Virus record (IMG/VR): IMGVR_UViG_3300021432_000021
Location: 1 to 41,413 of that record
From: a virus
DNA length: 41,413 nucleotides
Reading direction: 5' to 3' (one strand)
Under the pieces are notes generated by a model. The model had not been told where the DNA came from. It did no database searches and saw only the letters and a program-made list of their open reading frames with translations. The position numbers and the translations under genes were made by a program. Position 1 is the first letter of the stretch. Each line of letters starts with the position of its first letter. Shown here one piece after another: positions 17,047 to 38,524 of the stretch.

Positions 17047-17133
17047 ATGCGTTTCTACAAGGCTATCCGCATGGACGGCACGGACTTCCGTACCGGCACC
17101 GTGGACTACGCGGCCCTGTCGGTGATGGGGTGA
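17047..17133 (+). CDS. Micro-ORF of 28 residues upstream of the nuclease
   Basis: ATG 17047 to TGA 17131-17133 encodes MRFYKAIRMDGTDFRTGTVD plus eight residues. CTTGGAGGCTG upstream supplies a ribosome site, and the stop overlaps the next ATG (TGATG). The ribosome site and coupling argue that it is translated and may be needed to start the nuclease gene. Confidence 0.5.
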   Translation: MRFYKAIRMDGTDFRTGTVDYAALSVMG

Positions 17134-18005
17134 TGCACCCCGCAGCACGTGAGCTGATGGACGCCTGGATCGCCAAGGACGACGCCAGGCCGCGCAGTTC
17201 GTCCGGCGTCGGGTTCTCCTCGCTGATGGGCTGCCGCCGCCGTGTGTTCTACGACCTGGAACATGCCGAGAAGATCAACCCGAACGTGCTGCGGCTGCCG
17301 TCCCTGATGGGCACGGCCATCCACGGCGACGTGGAGAGCCTGCGCCTGCCCGGGGCTACCGAGGTCGAGGTGGAGGCCGAGGGCCTGATCGGACATGTGG
17401 ACCGCTACAACGACGGCACCGTGACCGACTGGAAGACCACGAAGCTCAAGAGCCTGGCCTGGATTCGCCAGCACGGCCCGTCCATGCAGCAGCAGGCGCA
17501 GGTGCACACGTACGGCCTGGCCATCCTGCAACTGGGCGAGCCCGTGGTGCAGGTGCGCCTGGTCTACATCCCCCGCGACGGCACCGAGGAGGACATCTAC
17601 GTATGGGAAGCGCCGCTGGACGTGGACCTGGCCCGGCAGGCTCTGGCGTGGCTGGAGGAGATCAAGCGCGCGGCCGACAACGACATGATCCCCATGCCGG
17701 AGAAGCACGCCTCGTTCTGCGTAAGCTACTGCCCGTTCTACGGGCCCGGCCAGTGCGAAGGGCTGGAAAATCCCGGCGCGGATGATCCGGAGTCCATGAT
17801 GGACGATCCGTGGCGCGCGGGGGAGATACGCGAAGCCGCTGAGAGCCTGCTGTCGGCTTCGGGAGCAGTGGACGGGGCCATGGAGCGCAGGGATGCCGCC
17901 AGGGCCGCCCTGGAGGGCGTAGCCGGTCGATTCGGCCCCTTCCTGATCTCACAGCGCCGGACATCCTCCGGCAGCTACTACCCGGTCGTGAAAAGGATCA
18001 AGTGA
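17133..18005 (+). CDS. Cas4/RecB-like PD-(D/E)XK exonuclease with Fe-S cysteines
   Basis: The 290-residue protein starts at the ATG of a TGATG overlap. Nuclease motifs: H64 in MGTAIHGDVE, D90 in GHVDR, D99-W100-K101 in TDWKTTK, and the QQQAQVHTYG helix at about 119-128. Four cysteines (C34, and C196/C200/C208 in FCVSYCPFYGPGQC) match the iron-sulfur cluster of Cas4/AddB-type enzymes. It probably makes ssDNA for the Erf-like annealase, the two forming a phage recombination pair. There is no CRISPR array or other Cas gene nearby, so a CRISPR role is unlikely. Confidence 0.8.
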   Translation: MHPAARELMDAWIAKDDARPRSSSGVGFSSLMGCRRRVFYDLEHAEKINPNVLRLPSLMGTAIHGDVESLRLPGATEVEVEAEGLIGHVDRYNDGTVTDWKTTKLKSLAWIRQHGPSMQQQAQVHTYGLAILQLGEPVVQVRLVYIPRDGTEEDIYVWEAPLDVDLARQALAWLEEIKRAADNDMIPMPEKHASFCVSYCPFYGPGQCEGLENPGADDPESMMDDPWRAGEIREAAESLLSASGAVDGAMERRDAARAALEGVAGRFGPFLISQRRTSSGSYYPVVKRIK

Positions 18006-18971: not shown

Positions 18972-19614
18972 GGCAAGCCGCTGGGCATGGTCCATCAAAG
19001 GACTCGACCTCAAGCAGAAGATGACGCTCATCGCCCTGGCTGACTGCTGCCGGTCTGCGGATGGCACGCAATCATGCTGGCCCTCCATTGATCACTTGGT
19101 CGGCATGACGGAGCTCTCTAGGGCGTCCGTCTTCCGAGCCATCAAGGCGCTCGAAAAGCTTAATCTGATCAAGGTAGAGCGTCGCCGGAACAGGTCCAGC
19201 GTCTACCATCTGAGGTCTCATAGGGAGACCCTAGGGGTCTCACAGGGAGACCTCCTGAGGTCTCACAGGGAGACTAAGGGGTCTCACGCTGAGACCCAGA
19301 ACCATAAAGGAACCAGAAAGGAACCAGAAAGGACGGGTTCGCTGTCGCGAACGCAGCAGGCCGACAAGATCGCTAAGGCGTACTGCGACCGCTCCGGCCC
19401 GCTGGCCAGCTTTCACCCCGCACGCGATTCGATCACCAGGGCGCTGCGTGCCGGATACTCCGCCGAGGAGATCGAGCTGGCGATCAAGGATGTTGAGCAC
19501 AGCGCCTGGGCGCTCACGGTCAACACGCTCCGGACGGCCCTGGAGCGGCGCAAGAGCACCGATTACGACGCCCTGTTCGACGCGAACGGAATGCTCAAGG
19601 CGGACGAGCCATGA
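18961..19614 (+). CDS. Replication initiator, lambda-O-like / DnaD-like winged-helix protein
   Basis: The 217-residue protein starts at ATG 18961. Residues 1-82 form a winged-helix domain (RWAWSIKGLDLKQKMTLIAL, CWPSIDHLVGMTELSRASVF, LEKLNLIKVERRR). Residues about 84-125 are a low-complexity, repeated linker (RSHRET repeats) encoded by four DNA iterons. Residues about 130-215 form a helical C-terminal domain (DSITRALRAGYSAEEIELAI). As in lambda O, DNA-binding head, in-gene origin and C-terminal interaction domain follow in order. It would recruit the helicase loader or host helicase. Confidence 0.7.
   Translation: MSVEASRWAWSIKGLDLKQKMTLIALADCCRSADGTQSCWPSIDHLVGMTELSRASVFRAIKALEKLNLIKVERRRNRSSVYHLRSHRETLGVSQGDLLRSHRETKGSHAETQNHKGTRKEPERTGSLSRTQQADKIAKAYCDRSGPLASFHPARDSITRALRAGYSAEEIELAIKDVEHSAWALTVNTLRTALERRKSTDYDALFDANGMLKADEP
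19214..19296 (+). repeat. ori: Four 17-bp iterons inside the initiator gene (probable replication origin)
   Basis: Each iteron is an inverted repeat of the form GGTCTCA-n3-TGAGACC: copies at 19214-19230, 19236-19252, 19259-19275 (last base T) and 19280-19296. Start-to-start spacing is 22, 23 and 21 bp, about two helical turns. Number, size, spacing and location in the linker region of the initiator gene all match the arrangement of the lambda origin. Confidence 0.7.
19297..19333 (+). repeat. Purine-rich direct repeats next to the iterons (candidate unwinding element)
   Basis: AAAGGAACCAG occurs at 19306-19316 and 19317-19327, followed by AAAGG. The stretch is noticeably A-rich and almost free of T within a G+C-rich genome. 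In lambda the iterons are followed by an A+T-rich, strand-biased segment where DNA opens; this is the equivalent position. Confidence 0.5.
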
Positions 19615-28345: not shown

Positions 28346-28374
28346 AAAAAGGGCCCCCGGCCGAAGCCGGGGGC
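28345..28374 (-). terminator. Intrinsic terminator for the leftward operon
   Basis: Read on the minus strand: GCCCCCGGC, UUCG tetraloop, GCCGGGGGC, CC and then six T (the A-tract at 28345-28350 on the plus strand). It is a textbook Rho-independent terminator for transcripts coming from the right. For rightward transcripts it lacks a T-run but could still act as a roadblock between the convergent operons. 28375-28487 holds no gene I can support. Confidence 0.85.
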
Positions 28375-28706: not shown

Positions 28707-28804
28707 TTGCGGTACGCGCCGAGCAGCTTGCCGACCAGCGCCAGCAGGAACATGAGCGCGAAGATCACGCCGCCCACGTCGGCTACAAACTCGTCCTCGT
28801 CCAT
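28703..28804 (-). CDS. Micro membrane protein (33 aa)
   Basis: ATG 28804 on the minus strand, preceded by AGGAAGGGAAGTGATCAAG, a variant of the operon's leader motif. It encodes MDEDEFVADVGGVIF, then a hydrophobic helix (ALMFLLALVGKLL) and a basic end. One membrane-spanning helix, acidic outside or basic inside. Its coupling to both neighbours supports translation. Confidence 0.65.
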   Translation of the reverse strand: MDEDEFVADVGGVIFALMFLLALVGKLLGAYRK

Positions 28805-28809
28805 CTTGA

Positions 28810-29982
28810 TCACTTCCCTTCCTGAGCGAGCGAATCGTCCGGAAGTCCGGAAGGCCGCTGGTCAGACGTGGTTTCCTCCGGAAGGGCATCCGGAAGGTAC
28901 GTGCCGAAATCGGCCCGCTTGTAGCCCTGCTGCGACTTGCCGTCCGCCCACACCTTCGTGGGACGTGCGACACCGGAGAGCATGGCGGCCAACTCGCGCG
29001 GCGCTGCGCCAGCGTTAGGCCACAGTGCCCGCCACGGCGCGCCCGGCAGGCCGAACAGCCACTCCAGCAGGCGCACGGTCGGTGCGCTGCCGTTGCCCCA
29101 GTCGAATGCCCCCAGGTCCGCCAGCAGGCGCTGACGCGGGGACGGCTCGGGGTCTGCATCGCTGCCGTCGCCCAGAACGAGCGCCTGGCACGCGCGGCTC
29201 ACACGGTCCGGCCAATCGCCACCCGCTACGGCGGCGACACAGAACAGCGGCTCCCATATCTCCTTCGCGCGGTTGGCCACACCTTCCGGCATGTCCGGCC
29301 ACGCCGTGCCGAGGTCCATGGCGTTCGCCTGGCCCCACGTGGCAAGCGCGTCCCGCAGCGCCCACCCGAGACCTTCGTGCAGCCGCTGCTGGTACTCGTC
29401 CGTGGTTCTGGTCTCTTGCTTGCGCATACGGAGCAAGATCGCCCGCTCGCGGGTCGGTGCCAGATGCCGGTTCGCACAGAAGTTGCTCGCGAGACCGGCG
29501 AGGGCTACCGGCGCGAAGGTGTGGATCACGCCGTTGGCCCGCGCCGTCTTTCCCGACCGCTTGTACCCCGAGTTGAGCAGGGTGCGCGTATCCCGCTGGC
29601 CATTTCCGGGACCGAACAGTAGGTCGATCTCGTCAATGATCAACGTTGCGTGCTCGTCCCTGATCAGGGTGACCAGGGACGGCGCGGTCGGCTGGCTCAC
29701 CAGGATGCCGCGCGCCGTCAGGTTCTCCAGCAGCGTGAGCAACAGGGTCTTGCCGCAACCGGCCACGTCGCCCAGCACGGCCAATCGTGGCGTGGAGTCG
29801 AATACCAGCATCCGGCCGTGGTCGGTCGCGTGCGTGTGCGCCGCCCAGAGCGCTGCGGTGTCGGCCGCAGCGTCGCTCGGGAAGCGGACGAACCGCGCCA
29901 GGTAGGCGCGGGTCTCGTCCAGCAGATCAGCTCCGCTCGGGCCCGTCTCCTCGCTCGCCCGCCTCGCAGTCGTGTCGTTCAT
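28810..29982 (-). CDS. DUF3631-domain P-loop ATPase
   Basis: ATG 29982 on the minus strand with leader GTGAGGTGAACG; 390 residues. Walker A GDVAGCGKT (71-79), Walker B LIIDEID (114-120), GYKRSGKTARANG (about 138-150) and FAPVALAG follow in the DUF3631 order; the C-terminal third is helical with a KRADFGTYLP segment. DUF3631 ATPases occur in plasmids, integrative elements and phages of actinobacteria, often beside replication or primase functions. Here it may remodel DNA or protein complexes; its partner is not obvious. It overlaps the upstream gene by 56 bp. Confidence 0.8.
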   Translation of the reverse strand: MNDTTARRASEETGPSGADLLDETRAYLARFVRFPSDAAADTAALWAAHTHATDHGRMLVFDSTPRLAVLGDVAGCGKTLLLTLLENLTARGILVSQPTAPSLVTLIRDEHATLIIDEIDLLFGPGNGQRDTRTLLNSGYKRSGKTARANGVIHTFAPVALAGLASNFCANRHLAPTRERAILLRMRKQETRTTDEYQQRLHEGLGWALRDALATWGQANAMDLGTAWPDMPEGVANRAKEIWEPLFCVAAVAGGDWPDRVSRACQALVLGDGSDADPEPSPRQRLLADLGAFDWGNGSAPTVRLLEWLFGLPGAPWRALWPNAGAAPRELAAMLSGVARPTKVWADGKSQQGYKRADFGTYLPDALPEETTSDQRPSGLPDDSLAQEGK

Positions 29983-30247
29983 CGTTCACCTCACTTTCGT
30001 CAGCGTCGGGCCAGTAGTCGAGATCGGTCAGGGACGGGTCAAGCGGGTCCTGCGCCGACCGGAACAGGGACTCACGCGACCCGACGTAGCGGATCGTGTA
30101 GGACTCAGGCTTGAGTCCAGCGCCGCGCGCGAAAGCGCGGCAGGCGTAGACGGCCCGCACGCGCGTCGGGCCGTTGCCCGCCTTCGCGTACAGGCCGCCG
30201 TCGTGTCCGATCCAGACCAGGACCACGACATGTTCGTTGGCGCTCAT
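29927..30247 (-). CDS. Small hypothetical protein of the leftward operon
   Basis: Start chosen at ATG 30247 (minus) directly behind the leader GTGAGGTGATC; 106 residues. N-terminus ANEHVVVLVWIGHDGGLYAK is beta-like, then VRAVYACRAFARGAG. The C-terminal third is acidic (DPLDPSLTDLDYWPDADESE). No family recognised. Its last 18 codons overlap the ATPase start. Confidence 0.65.
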   Translation of the reverse strand: MSANEHVVVLVWIGHDGGLYAKAGNGPTRVRAVYACRAFARGAGLKPESYTIRYVGSRESLFRSAQDPLDPSLTDLDYWPDADESEVNDERHDCEAGERGDGPERS

Positions 30248-30254
30248 GATCACC

Positions 30255-30596
30255 TCACAGATGCAGAACCTGACCCGGAAAGATCAGGTTCGGGTTGCTC
30301 CCCACGGTCCAGTGGTTGAGCCGGTACAGAGCGGGCCACCCGCCAGGCACGTGGTGCCGCAGCGCGATGGACCACAGATTGTCGCCCGGCCGCACCGTGT
30401 ACAGCGGCGGCTGCACGAGGTGCAGCGGCCGCCGGGGCGGTTGGACGGGAAGCCCGCTCGGCGCGTGCTGCGTGAGCGCGTGCAGGGCGGCAGGGTGGCC
30501 ACCGGACCGAAGGGTCCAGTAGAGACCGAAAGCGGCTGAGGCGACCAGCAGGGCCGTCCACAGTAGCCGGTAGGAACGGGACCGGTGACGGCCCAT
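30255..30596 (-). CDS. LysM-domain membrane-anchored protein
   Basis: Start chosen at ATG 30596 (minus) after leader AGAGAGGTGATCAAA; 113 residues. A basic start (GRHRSRSYR) and one transmembrane helix (about 11-29) are followed by a Pro-rich stretch and a C-terminal LysM domain (YTVRPGDNLWSIALRHH, ALYRLN, VGSNPNLIFPGQVLHL). The topology places LysM outside the membrane on peptidoglycan. The end of the domain is nearly identical to that of the lysin at 37538. It may modify the envelope during infection, for example in exclusion or lysis timing. Confidence 0.8.
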   Translation of the reverse strand: MGRHRSRSYRLLWTALLVASAAFGLYWTLRSGGHPAALHALTQHAPSGLPVQPPRRPLHLVQPPLYTVRPGDNLWSIALRHHVPGGWPALYRLNHWTVGSNPNLIFPGQVLHL

Positions 30597-30631
30597 TTTG
30601 ATCACCTCTCTGAGTCGCTGACGGACCAAGA

Positions 30632-30656
30632 GGGCCCCCGTACGAGACGGGGACCC
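30632..30656 (-). promoter_or_regulatory. Intergenic stem-loop before the LysM gene
   Basis: Arms 30632-30641 and 30647-30656 (GGGCCCCCGT / ACGGGGACCC) pair with one mismatch around a 5-nt loop. No T-run on the minus strand. Followed, in the direction of transcription, by the leader CTCAGAGAGGTGATCAAA and ATG. Confidence 0.55.
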
Positions 30657-30671
30657 GATGGCTCTCTCAGC

Positions 30672-31676
30672 TCACTTGCCCACCAGCTCCAGCACGCGGG
30701 ACATGGTGTCGCGGTCGGCGTTGACCGTGGTCCCCTCGATCGCGTTGATCATGTTGCGCTCGGTGCGCTCAGCACCCTTGACGCTCTGCACGTGCTGGCG
30801 GTACGTGTTGTCCGCCTGGAGCACGCCGAATGCCGTGCCGGACCACGGGGCGACGCGCAGATCCTGTGTCCACAGTCGCTCCAGCTCGTCCCGCTTGGTC
30901 GTGGCCATGGTCTGACCCCGCCCCGTCTTGCCCCTCTCGGGCATGGGGGCGAGGATCTCGTTCCGGATCTTGATCCACTGCGGCCGGGTGATGGTCACTG
31001 CGGTGAGCGCCGCCACCTCCGCAGCGAACGTCTCACTGTCCTGCTCGATCAGCGCCAGCGCGTCACGCGCCTCTCCGATCTTGGTCAGGCTGTTGGCGGA
31101 GTGGCGCACCTTGAACTGCTGCCCGCTCTCTCGCAGCGCCGCCGCCATGGTGTTGTCGCACACCACGTTGGTCACGACGCGCTTGTACGTGGTGGCCAGT
31201 GACCCGTCAAAGCTCGTCGCGGCCATGAGGTTGGGCCGGAACGCAACGCCCTCCGGGGTGGTGAAGTTCTCCGGGACCTCCACGGACACCCATGCCTGGC
31301 GGCCACCCCGGAGTAGTCCGGCCGACCCGACGGCCAAGCCACCATGCAGGATCATGGCCACGTTCTCCACGAGCCACTGCGAGTACTGGTGACCCTTGTA
31401 GCCGTTGGTGAAGATGCCCAGCACCTCCGCCGTCCGGCTGGACACCCAAGCCTGCCGGTTGGGGACCTCGGCGAACCCGAGCGGCGCGGCCGGGTCCATC
31501 ACGTAGATAGTCTGGGGGTCAACGGTGAAGTCGAACAGTGATTCCACCCGCTCCAGCGGGACCGCGCCGGGGTAGCTGTTGCTGTGACCCTGCCTGTGGT
31601 GCCACGCCTGCCCCCGCTTGTCGGTGAAGCCAATCAGCGTGTTCTGACTGAGCCACTGCAACGTCTCTGCGGACAT
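30672..31676 (-). CDS. DUF932 (phage/plasmid-like, TIGR03299-type) protein
   Basis: Start chosen at ATG 31676 (minus) after leader CTCAGAGAGGAAAGATC; 334 residues. Features of the family: an N-terminal LIGFTDKRGQAWHHRQG, AWVSVEVPENFTTPEGV at mid-protein, RVVTNVVCDNTMAAAL (about 190-205), a long helix and QSVKGAERTERNMINAIEG near the end. DUF932 proteins are widespread in phages and plasmids, and no biochemical role is firmly established to my knowledge. It is the largest gene of the operon after the ATPase. Confidence 0.8.
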   Translation of the reverse strand: MSAETLQWLSQNTLIGFTDKRGQAWHHRQGHSNSYPGAVPLERVESLFDFTVDPQTIYVMDPAAPLGFAEVPNRQAWVSSRTAEVLGIFTNGYKGHQYSQWLVENVAMILHGGLAVGSAGLLRGGRQAWVSVEVPENFTTPEGVAFRPNLMAATSFDGSLATTYKRVVTNVVCDNTMAAALRESGQQFKVRHSANSLTKIGEARDALALIEQDSETFAAEVAALTAVTITRPQWIKIRNEILAPMPERGKTGRGQTMATTKRDELERLWTQDLRVAPWSGTAFGVLQADNTYRQHVQSVKGAERTERNMINAIEGTTVNADRDTMSRVLELVGK

Positions 31677-31722
31677 GATCTTTCCTCTCTGAGTGGTTGG
31701 TCGGATGACCATCCATGACCAG

Positions 31723-31740
31723 GACCGGCCGGGGCCGGTC
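31723..31740 (-). promoter_or_regulatory. Intergenic stem-loop before the DUF932 gene
   Basis: GACCGGCC (31723-31730), GG, GGCCGGTC (31733-31740) form a perfect 8-bp stem with a 2-nt centre. In the direction of transcription it is followed after about 45 nt by the leader AGAGAGGAAAGATC and ATG 31676. Confidence 0.55.
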
Positions 31741-31767
31741 GTGATCAAAGCGGGTCAGCCTCGGTGC

Positions 31768-31896
31768 TCATGCTTCCCGTGGCCCGGCGCAGAGTTCCTG
31801 CTTGCGCTGGTCTGAGCTGATGCCCAGCTCCATGCAGTCGCGGCAGGCGCACCAGGTGTACCCGCTTGTTGCGCCCGGGCTCACAGCCTCACGCAT
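31768..31896 (-). CDS. Small CxxC protein (42 aa)
   Basis: ATG 31896 on the minus strand behind GGAAGGACGATC, a variant of the shared leader. It encodes MREAVSPGATSGYTWCACRD, then CMELG, SSDQRKQELC. The CxCxxC cluster may bind a metal ion. It overlaps the upstream gene by 8 bp. Function unknown. Confidence 0.6.
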   Translation of the reverse strand: MREAVSPGATSGYTWCACRDCMELGISSDQRKQELCAGPREA

Positions 31897-32122
31897 GATC
31901 GTCCTTCCGGTCTTGGATCATGGGGTCATGATCAAAATGCACATTGATCATGTGATGCGGCACGGCCGACTGTCCGACCTCGTCCCGCCATTCGTTGACG
32001 GGGTACAGATCGGGGCGGGGCGTGCGGTACAGCGCGCCCTTCCACCATGACCACACCCGACCGTCAACGTCCGTGATGACGGCGGGAAGTCCGGCCGGTC
32101 GTACGTAGTCGCTCTCTCTCAC
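31889..32122 (-). CDS. Small hypothetical protein of the leftward operon
   Basis: Start placed at GTG 32122 (minus) because GAGAGAAGTGACCATC sits just upstream, as the operon's leader does elsewhere; GTG 32131 would leave almost no spacing. It encodes 77 residues: DYVRPAGLPAVITDVDGRVW, SWWKGALYRTP, acidic/His-rich end. No family recognised. Confidence 0.6.
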   Translation of the reverse strand: MRESDYVRPAGLPAVITDVDGRVWSWWKGALYRTPRPDLYPVNEWRDEVGQSAVPHHMINVHFDHDPMIQDRKDDHA

Positions 32123-32156
32123 GATGGTCACTTCTCTCTCATCGCACGCTCGGCGA

Positions 32157-32177
32157 GTGCCAGGAAAACCCTGGCAC
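32157..32177 (-). promoter_or_regulatory. Intergenic stem-loop before the 32122 gene
   Basis: GTGCCAGG (32157-32164), AAAAC loop, CCTGGCAC (32170-32177): perfect 8-bp stem. On the minus strand it is followed by the GAGAGAAGTGACCATC leader. No T-run. Confidence 0.55.
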
Positions 32178-32213
32178 CCCAACCGAGCATGATGTGCCGA
32201 TGACGCGTACGCA

Positions 32214-32438
32214 TCATCGCTGTGCCTCGGCAAGCGACACGCCCGTGCGCACCTGCAAGCCGTCAAGCAAGTAGGCGTCAAGCAGGAAGAACGGCACCTG
32301 CCCCGCCACCTCCCGCATGGACGGAGCGTCGCGGTGAATGGACGCGACGAACGCAAGCTCCTCGAACTGCTCTCCGTCGGCATCCTCTCCGCGCACCGCT
32401 ACCAGGTGTGCGTAGACCTTGATCAATTCAACGGACAT
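32214..32438 (-). CDS. Small hypothetical protein of the leftward operon
   Basis: ATG 32438 (minus) behind leader GCGAGGTAGTC; 74 residues. SVELIKVYAHLVAVRGED, FEELAFVASIHRDAPS and FFLLDAYLLDGLQV give a compact alpha/beta pattern. No family recognised. Confidence 0.65.
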   Translation of the reverse strand: MSVELIKVYAHLVAVRGEDADGEQFEELAFVASIHRDAPSMREVAGQVPFFLLDAYLLDGLQVRTGVSLAEAQR

Positions 32439-32472
32439 GACTACCTCGCTAGTCAGGGGATGGATGGGACGC

Positions 32473-32518
32473 GCTCCCTGCCGGTCATGAGCCGATGCCG
32501 CCTACGCGGGCAGGGAGC
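32473..32518 (-). promoter_or_regulatory. Intergenic long-loop inverted repeat before the 32438 gene
   Basis: GCTCCCTGCC (32473-32482) and GGCAGGGAGC (32509-32518) are perfectly complementary across a 26-nt loop. The 32439-32587 gap contains no gene I can support. Confidence 0.5.
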
Positions 32519-32587
32519 CTTTCAAGATCACCGTTACGGGACGCAGAGTGCCGATGGCAGTCGGGATGCGGAGTGCCGTGCGTGTGA

Positions 32588-32713
32588 TCAGATCCGAATG
32601 GTCATCGCGTGCCGCTCACCGTGGGGCCATGAGCCGCACCCTTCACACTCCTGAGTGGAGAACGTCTGGCGTTCGCAGTCGCACTCATAGTCGCCGGGCG
32701 CGTCGCCACCCAT
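32588..32713 (-). CDS. Small zinc-binding protein, probably frameshifted at its N-terminus
   Basis: The safe reading starts at ATG 32713 (minus), 41 residues: MGGDAPGDYE, CDCERQ, CEGCGSWPHG. The proper leader AGAGAGGTAAGATC, however, precedes ATG 32760 in the +1 register. One missing G near 32742 would join that start (MSVAGK) to SCDACLLRRMGGDA and give a 57-residue protein with three CxC/CxxC motifs. It resembles the zinc protein at 28488-28706. A sequencing slip, a decayed gene or a frameshift are all possible. Confidence 0.5.
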   Translation of the reverse strand: MGGDAPGDYECDCERQTFSTQECEGCGSWPHGERHAMTIRI

Positions 32714-32786
32714 GCGGCGCAGGAGACACGCGTCACAGCTTCCTTGCCTGCAACGCTCATGATCTTACCTCTCTGTGATCTAACCC

Positions 32787-32825
32787 CTAAGCGGGGTACG
32801 GGAGTTGCACCCGTACGCCGCTTAG
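32787..32825 (-). promoter_or_regulatory. Long two-part stem-loop (minihelix-like) in the leftward operon
   Basis: CTAAGCGG/CCGCTTAG (outer 8 bp) and GTACGGG/CCCGTAC (inner 7 bp) are separated by one mismatch and close a 7-nt loop (TGCAACT on the minus strand). It lies between the membrane protein gene ending at 32841 and the leader of ATG 32760. It looks like a processing or stability element rather than an intrinsic terminator, as no T-run follows. Confidence 0.6.
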
Positions 32826-32840
32826 ATGCGGGATCACCAC

Positions 32841-33059
32841 CTAGTTTGAGTTGAAGTTGGCGCGGCACTGCGCAAACTCCGGGGCCGTGGTTGTGGTCGC
32901 ATCGCAGTGACCGTCCACAAATCCATCGTTGTAGCTGGTGACGGACGGCGCGTACTTCGGTTGGTCGGCGTGCCGCTGACCGGTCGCCCCGGTCAGCATC
33001 CCGATGCCGAACGCTGCCGCGATGACCAGAGTCAGCAGCGCGGCTTTCCAGCGGCTCAC
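32841..33059 (-). CDS. Small secreted or membrane-anchored protein
   Basis: GTG 33059 (minus) overlaps the previous stop (GTGA); 72 residues. SRWKAALLTLVIAAAFGIGM is a signal-anchor or signal peptide; the rest is hydrophilic with two Cys (GHCDATTTTAPEF, CRANF) that could form a disulfide outside the membrane. No family recognised. Confidence 0.65.
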   Translation of the reverse strand: MSRWKAALLTLVIAAAFGIGMLTGATGQRHADQPKYAPSVTSYNDGFVDGHCDATTTTAPEFAQCRANFNSN

Positions 33060-33424
33060 CGGACCACCCTTCCGCCCCAGAGCTTGACGTGCTCTGCGAT
33101 GGCTACGTGGATCTTGTTTTGGTGAGCGGTCGTGGTCGCGCTGTAGTGCTCATCCGGCACGTACCAAACGTCGGCGTCCGAGTAGTGGGATAGCCATGCG
33201 ATAGGCGTCTCGTATGACCAGATCACGTACACGGCGAACATGAGCGGGACGGCGTACTTGCTGTCCAGCCGACCGAAGGTCAGCGGGAAGTCATCGGCAG
33301 TGACGGGGCCACCGCTGAGTGCGCCGCATGTACGGAAAGGCTTGCCCGCTGCGATCACATCGCGGTACTCCCACCACCCGGCCTTGCGGCCTGACCTGGC
33401 ATTGAGGTGGATAACCTTACCCAT
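33056..33424 (-). CDS. Hypothetical actinophage protein, first gene of the leftward operon
   Basis: Start chosen at ATG 33424 (minus) behind GGAGATGATCATC; 122 residues. GKVIHLNARSGRKAGWWEY, SYETPIAWLSHY, DVWYVPDEHYSATTTAHQNK form a pattern I associate with a small phage family of unknown function (the Y.TPIAW and YS.TT..HQ motifs). No enzyme motif is visible. As the first gene after the divergent region it marks the start of the leftward transcript. Confidence 0.7.
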   Translation of the reverse strand: MGKVIHLNARSGRKAGWWEYRDVIAAGKPFRTCGALSGGPVTADDFPLTFGRLDSKYAVPLMFAVYVIWSYETPIAWLSHYSDADVWYVPDEHYSATTTAHQNKIHVAIAEHVKLWGGRVVR

Positions 33425-33446
33425 GATGATCATCTCCATGATCAAA

Positions 33447-33467
33447 CGTGCCGGGAGATCCGGCACG
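33447..33467 (-). promoter_or_regulatory. Stem-loop in the leader of the leftward operon
   Basis: CGTGCCGG (33447-33454), GAGAT loop, CCGGCACG (33460-33467): perfect 8-bp stem about 20 nt upstream of the first gene's GGAGATGATCATC leader. Confidence 0.55.
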
Positions 33468-34918: not shown

Positions 34919-35416
34919 ATGGCTAAGACGACGACGGTGTACCTGTCCACCGAGCAGGTGGAGGCGATGGAGCGGCTGGACGTGCGGCTGGCGGACGTGA
35001 TCCGGGCCGGGTTCCAGGTGCTGGAGCTGATCGGGCCGCAGGGACCTCTGCGGGCCTCGGTGCAGGCGGCGGTCGACTCGGTGCGGACCGTCCCGGATTC
35101 CGATCCGTGGGAGGCGACGGCGGCCACGTCGAACGACGCAAGGGTGCTGTCGTTCGACACCGAGCCGATGCCGGAGGTGGTCCGCTCCGCCAGGTACAAC
35201 GCCGACGGCACGATCACCGTGGATCGGCGCGATAAGGGCTACTCCATCGGGATCAAGAACGGCATCCGCGAGAAGCGGGACGGCCAGAACTTGGTCACCG
35301 GCGGCACCGTCGAGGAGGTCAGCTACGTCGACCGCCCGTGCCCGCATCCTGCGGGCCGGGTACTCAAGGGGTTCTGTGGCGCTTGCGGCAGTCCCGTGAC
35401 GAAAGGCAAGAAGTGA
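34919..35416 (+). CDS. Ribbon-helix-helix DNA-binding protein with C-terminal zinc ribbon
   Basis: ATG 34919, 165 residues. Residues 1-36 (KTTTVYLSTEQVEAMERLDV, RLADVIRAGFQVL) have the strand-helix-helix form of RHH repressors. The middle is variable, with RYNADGTITVDRRDKGYSIG. The end CPHPAGRVLKGFCGACGSP is a zinc-ribbon-like cluster. It probably regulates this transcript by binding the palindromes upstream. No good ribosome site is present, so the message might be leaderless. Confidence 0.7.
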   Translation: MAKTTTVYLSTEQVEAMERLDVRLADVIRAGFQVLELIGPQGPLRASVQAAVDSVRTVPDSDPWEATAATSNDARVLSFDTEPMPEVVRSARYNADGTITVDRRDKGYSIGIKNGIREKRDGQNLVTGGTVEEVSYVDRPCPHPAGRVLKGFCGACGSPVTKGKK

Positions 35417-37541: not shown

Positions 37542-38524
37542 CCGCCGCAGTCGACGTAACTGTCCAGCCTGGGGACTGGCTCTCCAAGATCGCTCCGAAG
37601 TACAGCGAGACGTGGCAGCAGCTCTACCAGGACAACAAGTCGGTAGTGGGCTCCAACCCGAACCTGATCTTCCCCGGTCAGGTTCTCGTCGTTCACCCCG
37701 GCACCGGTTCGCACCGCGCCGCCGACTCGCCCGATGTGACGGTGCACCCCGCCGCAGGCAACGCGGCGGGGGGCACTACTTCGGGGACGAGCGCCGCGCA
37801 GGCTGCGGTTGCGTTCGCGAAGGCCCAGATCGGCAAGCCGTACCTGTACGGCGGTAACGGCCCGGCCGCGTTCGACTGCTCCGGCCTGACCTCGCAGGCG
37901 TACCTGCACGCCGGGATCTCGATCCCGCGTACCGCCGACGAGCAGTGGAAGGGCCTGCCGCACGTCTCGCTGTCGGCGCTACATGTGGGGGACCTGATCG
38001 CCTTCGGCTACAACGCCGGGTACGCCGACCATGTCGCCATCTACGTCGGCGGCGGAATGATCATCGACACTTCCACGCACCGGCCGAACGGCGGCGTGGC
38101 GGAGCAGTCGCTGGCCTCACGCTGGGCCGGTGGCTCTTGGCACCCGCTCGGGGGGATGCGGCCCTCCGGTGGTGTGCACGCCGCCGTCCAGGCCCCGCCG
38201 AAGAACACCTCCGCGCCGGTCATTCCGCCGATCGTGACGCTCGGCGGTATCCAGGGCATCGCTCAGGGGATCTTCGGCTCGCAGTACTCCTGCGCGGCGA
38301 ACATCATCCAGAACGAGTCCGGCTGGGATCCGAGGGCCACCAATCCGTCATCGGGCGCGTACGGCCTGCCGCAGGCGCTGCCGGGCAACAAGATGGCCAG
38401 CGCGGGCGCTGACTGGGCGACTAACCCGACCACGCAGCTCCGTTGGATGAAGTCGTACGTCGACTCGGTGTACGGCGGGGCCTGTGCCGCATGGGCACAC
38501 TGGCAGGGAGCGCAGAGCTACTGA
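37538..38524 (+). CDS. Multidomain cell-wall hydrolase: LysM + NlpC/P60 + transglycosylase-like (endolysin candidate)
   Basis: ATG 37538 (ATGA overlap), 328 residues. LysM at 6-52 (VTVQPGDWLSKIAPKYS, PNLIFPGQVLVV). NlpC/P60 peptidase at about 85-190: FDCSGL with candidate nucleophile Cys114 and YADHVAIYVGG with His165. A C-terminal lytic-transglycosylase-like domain at about 235-325: QNESGWDPRATNPSSGAYG with candidate Glu260. It binds peptidoglycan and would cut both peptide and glycan. There is no signal peptide, so release would need a holin; membrane genes flank it on both sides. Not being in the tail module favours an endolysin. Confidence 0.82.
   Translation: MTAAVDVTVQPGDWLSKIAPKYSETWQQLYQDNKSVVGSNPNLIFPGQVLVVHPGTGSHRAADSPDVTVHPAAGNAAGGTTSGTSAAQAAVAFAKAQIGKPYLYGGNGPAAFDCSGLTSQAYLHAGISIPRTADEQWKGLPHVSLSALHVGDLIAFGYNAGYADHVAIYVGGGMIIDTSTHRPNGGVAEQSLASRWAGGSWHPLGGMRPSGGVHAAVQAPPKNTSAPVIPPIVTLGGIQGIAQGIFGSQYSCAANIIQNESGWDPRATNPSSGAYGLPQALPGNKMASAGADWATNPTTQLRWMKSYVDSVYGGACAAWAHWQGAQSY

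Follow-up and report, generated by a model that had tools for sequence, protein, structure and literature searches.

The closest described counterparts of the elements discussed here are the start-associated sequences (SAS) of cluster K phages, 13-bp repeats of the form GGGATAGGAGCCC that are present in 11 to 19 copies and whose conserved positions include ones that do not pair with 16S ribosomal RNA (rRNA) (PMC3203893). The inverted repeats of the same phages known as extended SAS (ESAS) follow a common 17-bp consensus, and it was considered unlikely that they form RNA hairpins (PMC3203893). Microbacterium cluster EF phages have SAS and ESAS of their own, and in cluster EG 18-bp inverted repeats, GATCAACCNNGGTTGATC, with GATC, lie upstream of leftward genes, 14 to 22 bp from the start; the repeats of both clusters are conserved in sequence and occur in 8 to 10 copies (PMC7302621). 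Here we examine a stretch of DNA from an uncultured phage, 41,413 bases long and 65% GC (IMG/VR record IMGVR_UViG_3300021432_000021), the whole of which is called the window below. It contains one leftward operon, running from 33424 to about 28488 and including a DUF932 gene and a DUF3631 gene. An original prediction, made from the sequence, held that ten starts of this operon are preceded by variants of one leader, AGAGAGG-NNN-GATC-ATG, that each longer gap also holds a stem-loop, and that the two form a dedicated regulon parallel to SAS and ESAS. Our analysis points instead to ordinary strong ribosome-binding sites (RBSs) preceded by hairpins in the gaps between genes, which probably serve as partial terminators, processing sites or stabilisers.

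All six proposed hairpins are present where they had been placed (Table 1). Short-loop stems of 8 bp or more occur in five of the six upstream gaps, compared with 0.28 expected from shuffled sequences, and when the gap with the operon-end terminator is included a hairpin occurs in 6 of 7 gaps (0.97 expected). In the sixth gap the stem, at 32473-32518, is weak by energy, and the full gap shows no unusual degree of structure (z 0.27). The hairpins are also, as proposed, unrelated in sequence, with no shared repeat family among those of the window. Among the leftward hairpins, the combination of a GC-rich stem and a T run that marks an intrinsic terminator is found only at the operon end, 28353-28374. 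The close relatives available for comparison of the stems are identical contigs only. Arthrobacter phage Sonali resembles the window in having GC-rich stems, of 8 to 16 bp, in many of its gaps (9 of 18, against 1.3 expected), but differs in that the scan returned none of its starts with a Shine-Dalgarno (SD) sequence plus GATC, while Rhodococcus phage REQ1 has hardly any gap hairpins (2 of 15 gaps, 1.4 expected). The hairpins of the window are real but not unique. Elsewhere in the window, a 15-bp hairpin just past gene 1569-2846 (2854-2895) is the strongest short-loop hairpin among the rightward gaps, and three adjacent hairpins of GGGAGACC/GGTCTCAC-type sequence lie within a predicted gene at 19223-19297.

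The leader is exact at only two minus-strand sites, 32758-32774 and 31674-31690, belonging to starts 32760 and 31676. The 30596 start has ACTCAGAGAGG in common with 31676 and then continues with TGATCAAAATG instead, and the remaining seven listed starts have only an AG-rich SD in common, at varying spacing, so that outside the two exact copies the proposed variants differ and are generic SD sites. Counts of the motif speak against the original prediction: AGAGAGG is at chance level in the window (5 copies, 5.5 expected), and the full motif with up to three mismatches is barely above it, with 7 sites against 3.6 expected and 7 of 100 shuffles reaching 7. AGAGAGG-NNN-GATC is kept in none of 44 DUF932 homologues, all of them distant (about 42 to 56% identity); GATC lies within 12 nucleotides (nt) of the start in two of the 44, and most have some other SD.

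Comparison with the described systems separates placement from sequence. As in cluster K, a motif at the RBS position precedes some of the non-structural genes at their translation starts, and certain of these genes also have an inverted repeat farther upstream; in cluster K, however, that motif is a conserved 13-mer in many copies, where the window offers its two exact leaders and an AGAGAGG core at chance. With respect to conserved positions outside the 16S rRNA pairing, GATC is enriched in the window, and its pairing is contiguous with that of the SD at two starts only. The ESAS share a consensus and the window hairpins share no sequence. Clusters EF and EG likewise have repeats just upstream of starts, those of EG at leftward genes and with GATC, but these are conserved, unlike the unrelated hairpins and loosely similar RBSs seen here. 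The parallel drawn with SAS fails on sequence conservation, and that with ESAS because the hairpins have nothing in common; we do not place the window with either, since copy number and shared consensus are lacking, although the placement is alike. An ordinary extended SD matches the window in position, in its AG-rich core and in the pairing of GAGGTGATC at 30596 and 30247, and differs from it in that GATC is locally denser in the window and the leader is present there in two near-identical copies.

The 3' end of bacterial 16S rRNA is GGAUCACCUCCUUUCU, a general sequence from which that of the host may differ. Judged against this general tail rather than the host's, the leftward sites are purine-rich, complementary to 16S rRNA and normally spaced from the start. 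At 30596 and 30247, GAGGTGATC pairs with nine consecutive bases of the tail, and GATC there simply prolongs the 16S pairing. The sites at 28804, 29982 and 30596 are among the strongest predicted SD duplexes of the phage. A form of ordinary RBS fits the leader better than a code does. The leftward operon is a row of small genes, several preceded by a true intergenic gap, in which a GC-rich hairpin follows the upstream stop codon and ends some 23 to 44 nt short of the next start. Next comes a strong purine-rich SD that the hairpin does not include, and GATC often stands between this SD and the start codon. Because the hairpins are placed from stop to start with the SD left free, partial termination, processing or stabilisation of RNA ends is suggested, any of which could tune transcript levels between genes. 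Each gene would be translated from its own ordinary site, and a special regulator would be unnecessary.

Several observations weigh against this explanation. GATC is significantly denser at leftward than at rightward starts, being found within positions -12 to -1 at 7 of 12 and 6 of 64, respectively (Fisher P = 4e-4), a value that is optimistic because 11 of the 12 leftward starts came from the original prediction's list or from reading of the sequence and the rightward ones were mostly chosen by machine. The two exact leaders have 17 of 18 bases in common, which is beyond the needs of SD function. Contiguous 16S pairing accounts fully for GATC at only 30596 and 30247; at 32760 and 31676 three bases separate GAGG from GATC, and pairing therefore fails to explain it there. 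Leftward and rightward starts show no significant difference in mean SD strength or accessibility (P 0.12 and 0.22), and the idea that the leftward operon has stronger or more accessible RBSs was rejected on that ground. Lastly, the layout of a hairpin followed by SD and GATC recurs in the leftward operon of another phage, G001.

Occurrence outside the leftward operon speaks in part against the original prediction: SD plus GATC is also found at rightward starts 15401, 16176, 33913 and 36616 and at five annotated genes of REQ1 (10904, 17322, 32710, 46988 and 49534). The rightward genes had further been set apart by their stop-start overlaps, a contrast that survives in part, given these four starts and the overlaps of some leftward genes with their neighbours (33059, 31896 and 29982). 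GATCATG is enriched, with 23 copies against 6.1 expected, but is spread over the whole window. In IMG/VR, CAGAGAGGWRAGATCATG is found in this phage and four unrelated phages (39 to 61% GC), always before an ATG that opens an open reading frame (ORF). When the spacer of this search was relaxed, 55 stretches were recovered, nearly all with a single copy, and an ORF of 40 or more codons is opened by 36 of the 54 examined. That GATC before ATG is a general habit of actinophages or their hosts was considered and rejected, as it is found at about 1 to 3% in most groups. With the exact motif present twice, looser matches near chance, SD plus GATC found elsewhere and no DUF932 homologue keeping the leader, a dedicated regulon for the leftward operon is not supported.

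One version of the preferred explanation, and not exclusive of it, is that the hairpins are RNase processing sites that split the operon into mRNAs with fresh 5' leaders. RNase III processing sites are known in T7 early mRNA, and the position of the hairpins between stop and start, with the SD left uncovered, suits such a role. However, stems of 8 to 15 bp are short for RNase III, and the hairpin at 30632-30656 is more terminator-like; processing is a possibility that we put forward tentatively.

Alternatively, the hairpin and SD-GATC-ATG may form an SAS/ESAS-like unit of DUF932/DUF3631 leftward operons that is read by a phage or host factor, which we regard as unlikely. The skew of GATC towards leftward starts in the window speaks for it, as does G001 (IMGVR 3300048999_000166; 122 kb), which encodes on the same strand two relevant proteins, one of DUF932 type (42% identity) and one DUF3631-like (33%). 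Among G001 gaps of 50 to 250 nt, a GATC leader is found in 8 of 18 leftward and 2 of 26 rightward ones, and a hairpin in 12 of 18 and 8 of 26. Eight of nine selected SD plus GATC starts have a hairpin of at least 8 bp ending 18 to 49 nt upstream, compared with about 14% in random 80-mers. The proposed layout is real and is seen again in an independent phage; its reading as a regulon is unsupported. Because G001 was found through the motif, its recurrence there is a lead and not a test, and its starts come from a simple gene model of our own. The window, moreover, has just the two exact copies, homologous genes do not conserve the unit, the DUF932 gene of G001 itself has neither hairpin nor GATC leader, and other phages have SD plus GATC outside such operons. 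Gene models for G003 and G005 fell on the wrong strand and were left out of the gap comparison, and values obtained for G005 depend on simple start contexts. A tblastx comparison with loci carrying the motif was set aside because, DUF932 apart, its matches were for the most part weak and scattered.

G001 has a second small hairpin upstream of its leftward-operon genes, made up of a 5-bp stem around a constant RRYTCA loop. It has near variants and six exact copies (L142 14400-19700 and L143 1-5500 of IMGVR 3300048999_000166); the exact copies all share one strand, in the range from 14.4 to 22.2 kb, and their stems covary (CGGGC/GCCCG, TGAGC/GCTCA and AGTCC/GGACT). A search of the window did not find this element. 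It is doubtful, and in our judgement quite improbable, that several high-GC phages use a gene-specific hairpin followed by SD-GATC-ATG as a start-associated RNA module that sets the expression of individual genes in their DUF932/DUF3631 leftward operon, with the RRYTCA hairpin of G001 suggesting an RNA-recognising factor.

Very unlikely is that the enrichment of GATC and TGATCA is due to signals in the DNA, such as operators or sites of methylation, and not to RNA signals, since, although TGATCA is concentrated at 29 to 37 kb (17 of the 33 window sites) and palindromic GATC clusters occur at 33427-33444 and 31913-31952, many copies lie exactly at starts and in SD register, the second cluster is within a coding region and no repressor was identified. 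That second cluster, of CATGATC/GATCATG palindromes, stands at the end of the 32122-31889 gene.

Phage genes on the plus strand of the window include those for tape measure and terminase. The window is matched at 100% by two contigs of sample 3300021559, which reach 7.7 kb beyond it on the right and 261 bases beyond it on the left. Queries with DUF932, DUF3631, terminase, 1569-2846 and 17130-18005 recovered no diverged close relatives in IMG/VR, only these identical contigs, and the DUF3631 query had no match in genome_contigs. The affinities of individual proteins are with actinobacterial phages and hosts. Scans of the window for promoters and tRNAs found none, and a Tymo_tRNA-like match over 32776-32880 was rejected as a known RNA family, being far under the cut-off (E 1.1). 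The frame from the 32760 start differs from a neighbouring minus-strand frame, 32713-32588, which is cysteine-rich and by eye zinc-finger-like; a frameshift or a wrong start is possible at 32588-32760 (minus strand), and a 41-residue piece of the zinc-finger-like frame had no phage homologue. A 41-base stretch is 88% identical between 37646-37686 (plus strand), in a tail-lysin-like gene, and about 30265-30305 (minus strand), in the 30596 gene, and both resemble LysM repeats by eye. Another stretch of about 125 bases is repeated in the phage with 91% identity, at window 35218-35341 and L019 13675-13798.

Table 1. Features of the leftward operon, with positions in the window.
Feature	Position	Strand	Remarks
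Hairpin CGTGCCGG-ATCTC-CCGGCACG, operon 5' leader	33447-33467	minus	8 bp; reached by 3% of shuffles
First-gene start region (33424), TGATCATGGAGATGATCATCATG	33422-33444	minus	Palindromic GATCAT repeats
Hairpin between gene 33059-32841 and start 32760	32787-32825	minus	15 bp, one mismatch; reached by no shuffle; gap z -5.95
Leader CAGAGAGGTAAGATCATG, start 32760	32758-32775	minus	Exact match; 17/18 identical to 31674-31691
Perfect stem with 26-nt loop	32473-32518	minus	10 bp; weak by energy; 60-nt z -2.25; gap z 0.27
Hairpin GGGTGCCAGG-GTTTT-CCTGGCACTC	32155-32179	minus	9 bp, one mismatch
Hairpin around GACCGGC-CCCG-GCCGGTC	31720-31743	minus	9 bp, one mismatch
Second hairpin in the 31676 gap	31694-31715	minus	8 bp
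Leader CAGAGAGGAAAGATCATG of DUF932 gene, start 31676	31674-31691	minus	Exact match; 17/18 identical to 32758-32775
DUF932 gene	30672-31676	minus	Pfam E 3e-39; PHROG 1221
Hairpin GGGTCCCCGT-CTCGT-ACGGGGGCCC, 15 nt past DUF932 stop	30632-30656	minus	9 bp, one mismatch; terminator-like, without full T run
RBS ACTCAGAGAGGTGATCAAAATG, start 30596	30594-30615	minus	9-nt run complementary to 16S 3' tail; duplex -15.6 to -17.0 kcal/mol
RBS GAGGTGATCATG, start 30247	30245-30256	minus	9-nt run complementary to 16S 3' tail
Ordinary strong SD GTGAGGTGAACGATG, start 29982	29980-29994	minus	Without GATC; duplex -17.4 to -17.9 kcal/mol
DUF3631 gene	28810-29982	minus	Pfam E 1e-28
Ordinary strong SD GGAAGGGAAGTGATCAAGATG, start 28804	28802-28822	minus	Duplex -18.5 to -19.9 kcal/mol
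Intrinsic terminator, GCCCCCGGCTTCGGCCGGGGGC then CCTTTTTT, operon end	28353-28374	minus	

If the leftward sites are ordinary, start-associated motifs of phages should be labelled a code only after comparison with extended SD pairing and with other operons. If, on the other hand, the layout shared with G001 holds in a set of phages chosen independently of the motif, it would add to SAS and ESAS a second kind of start-associated element, one based on RNA.

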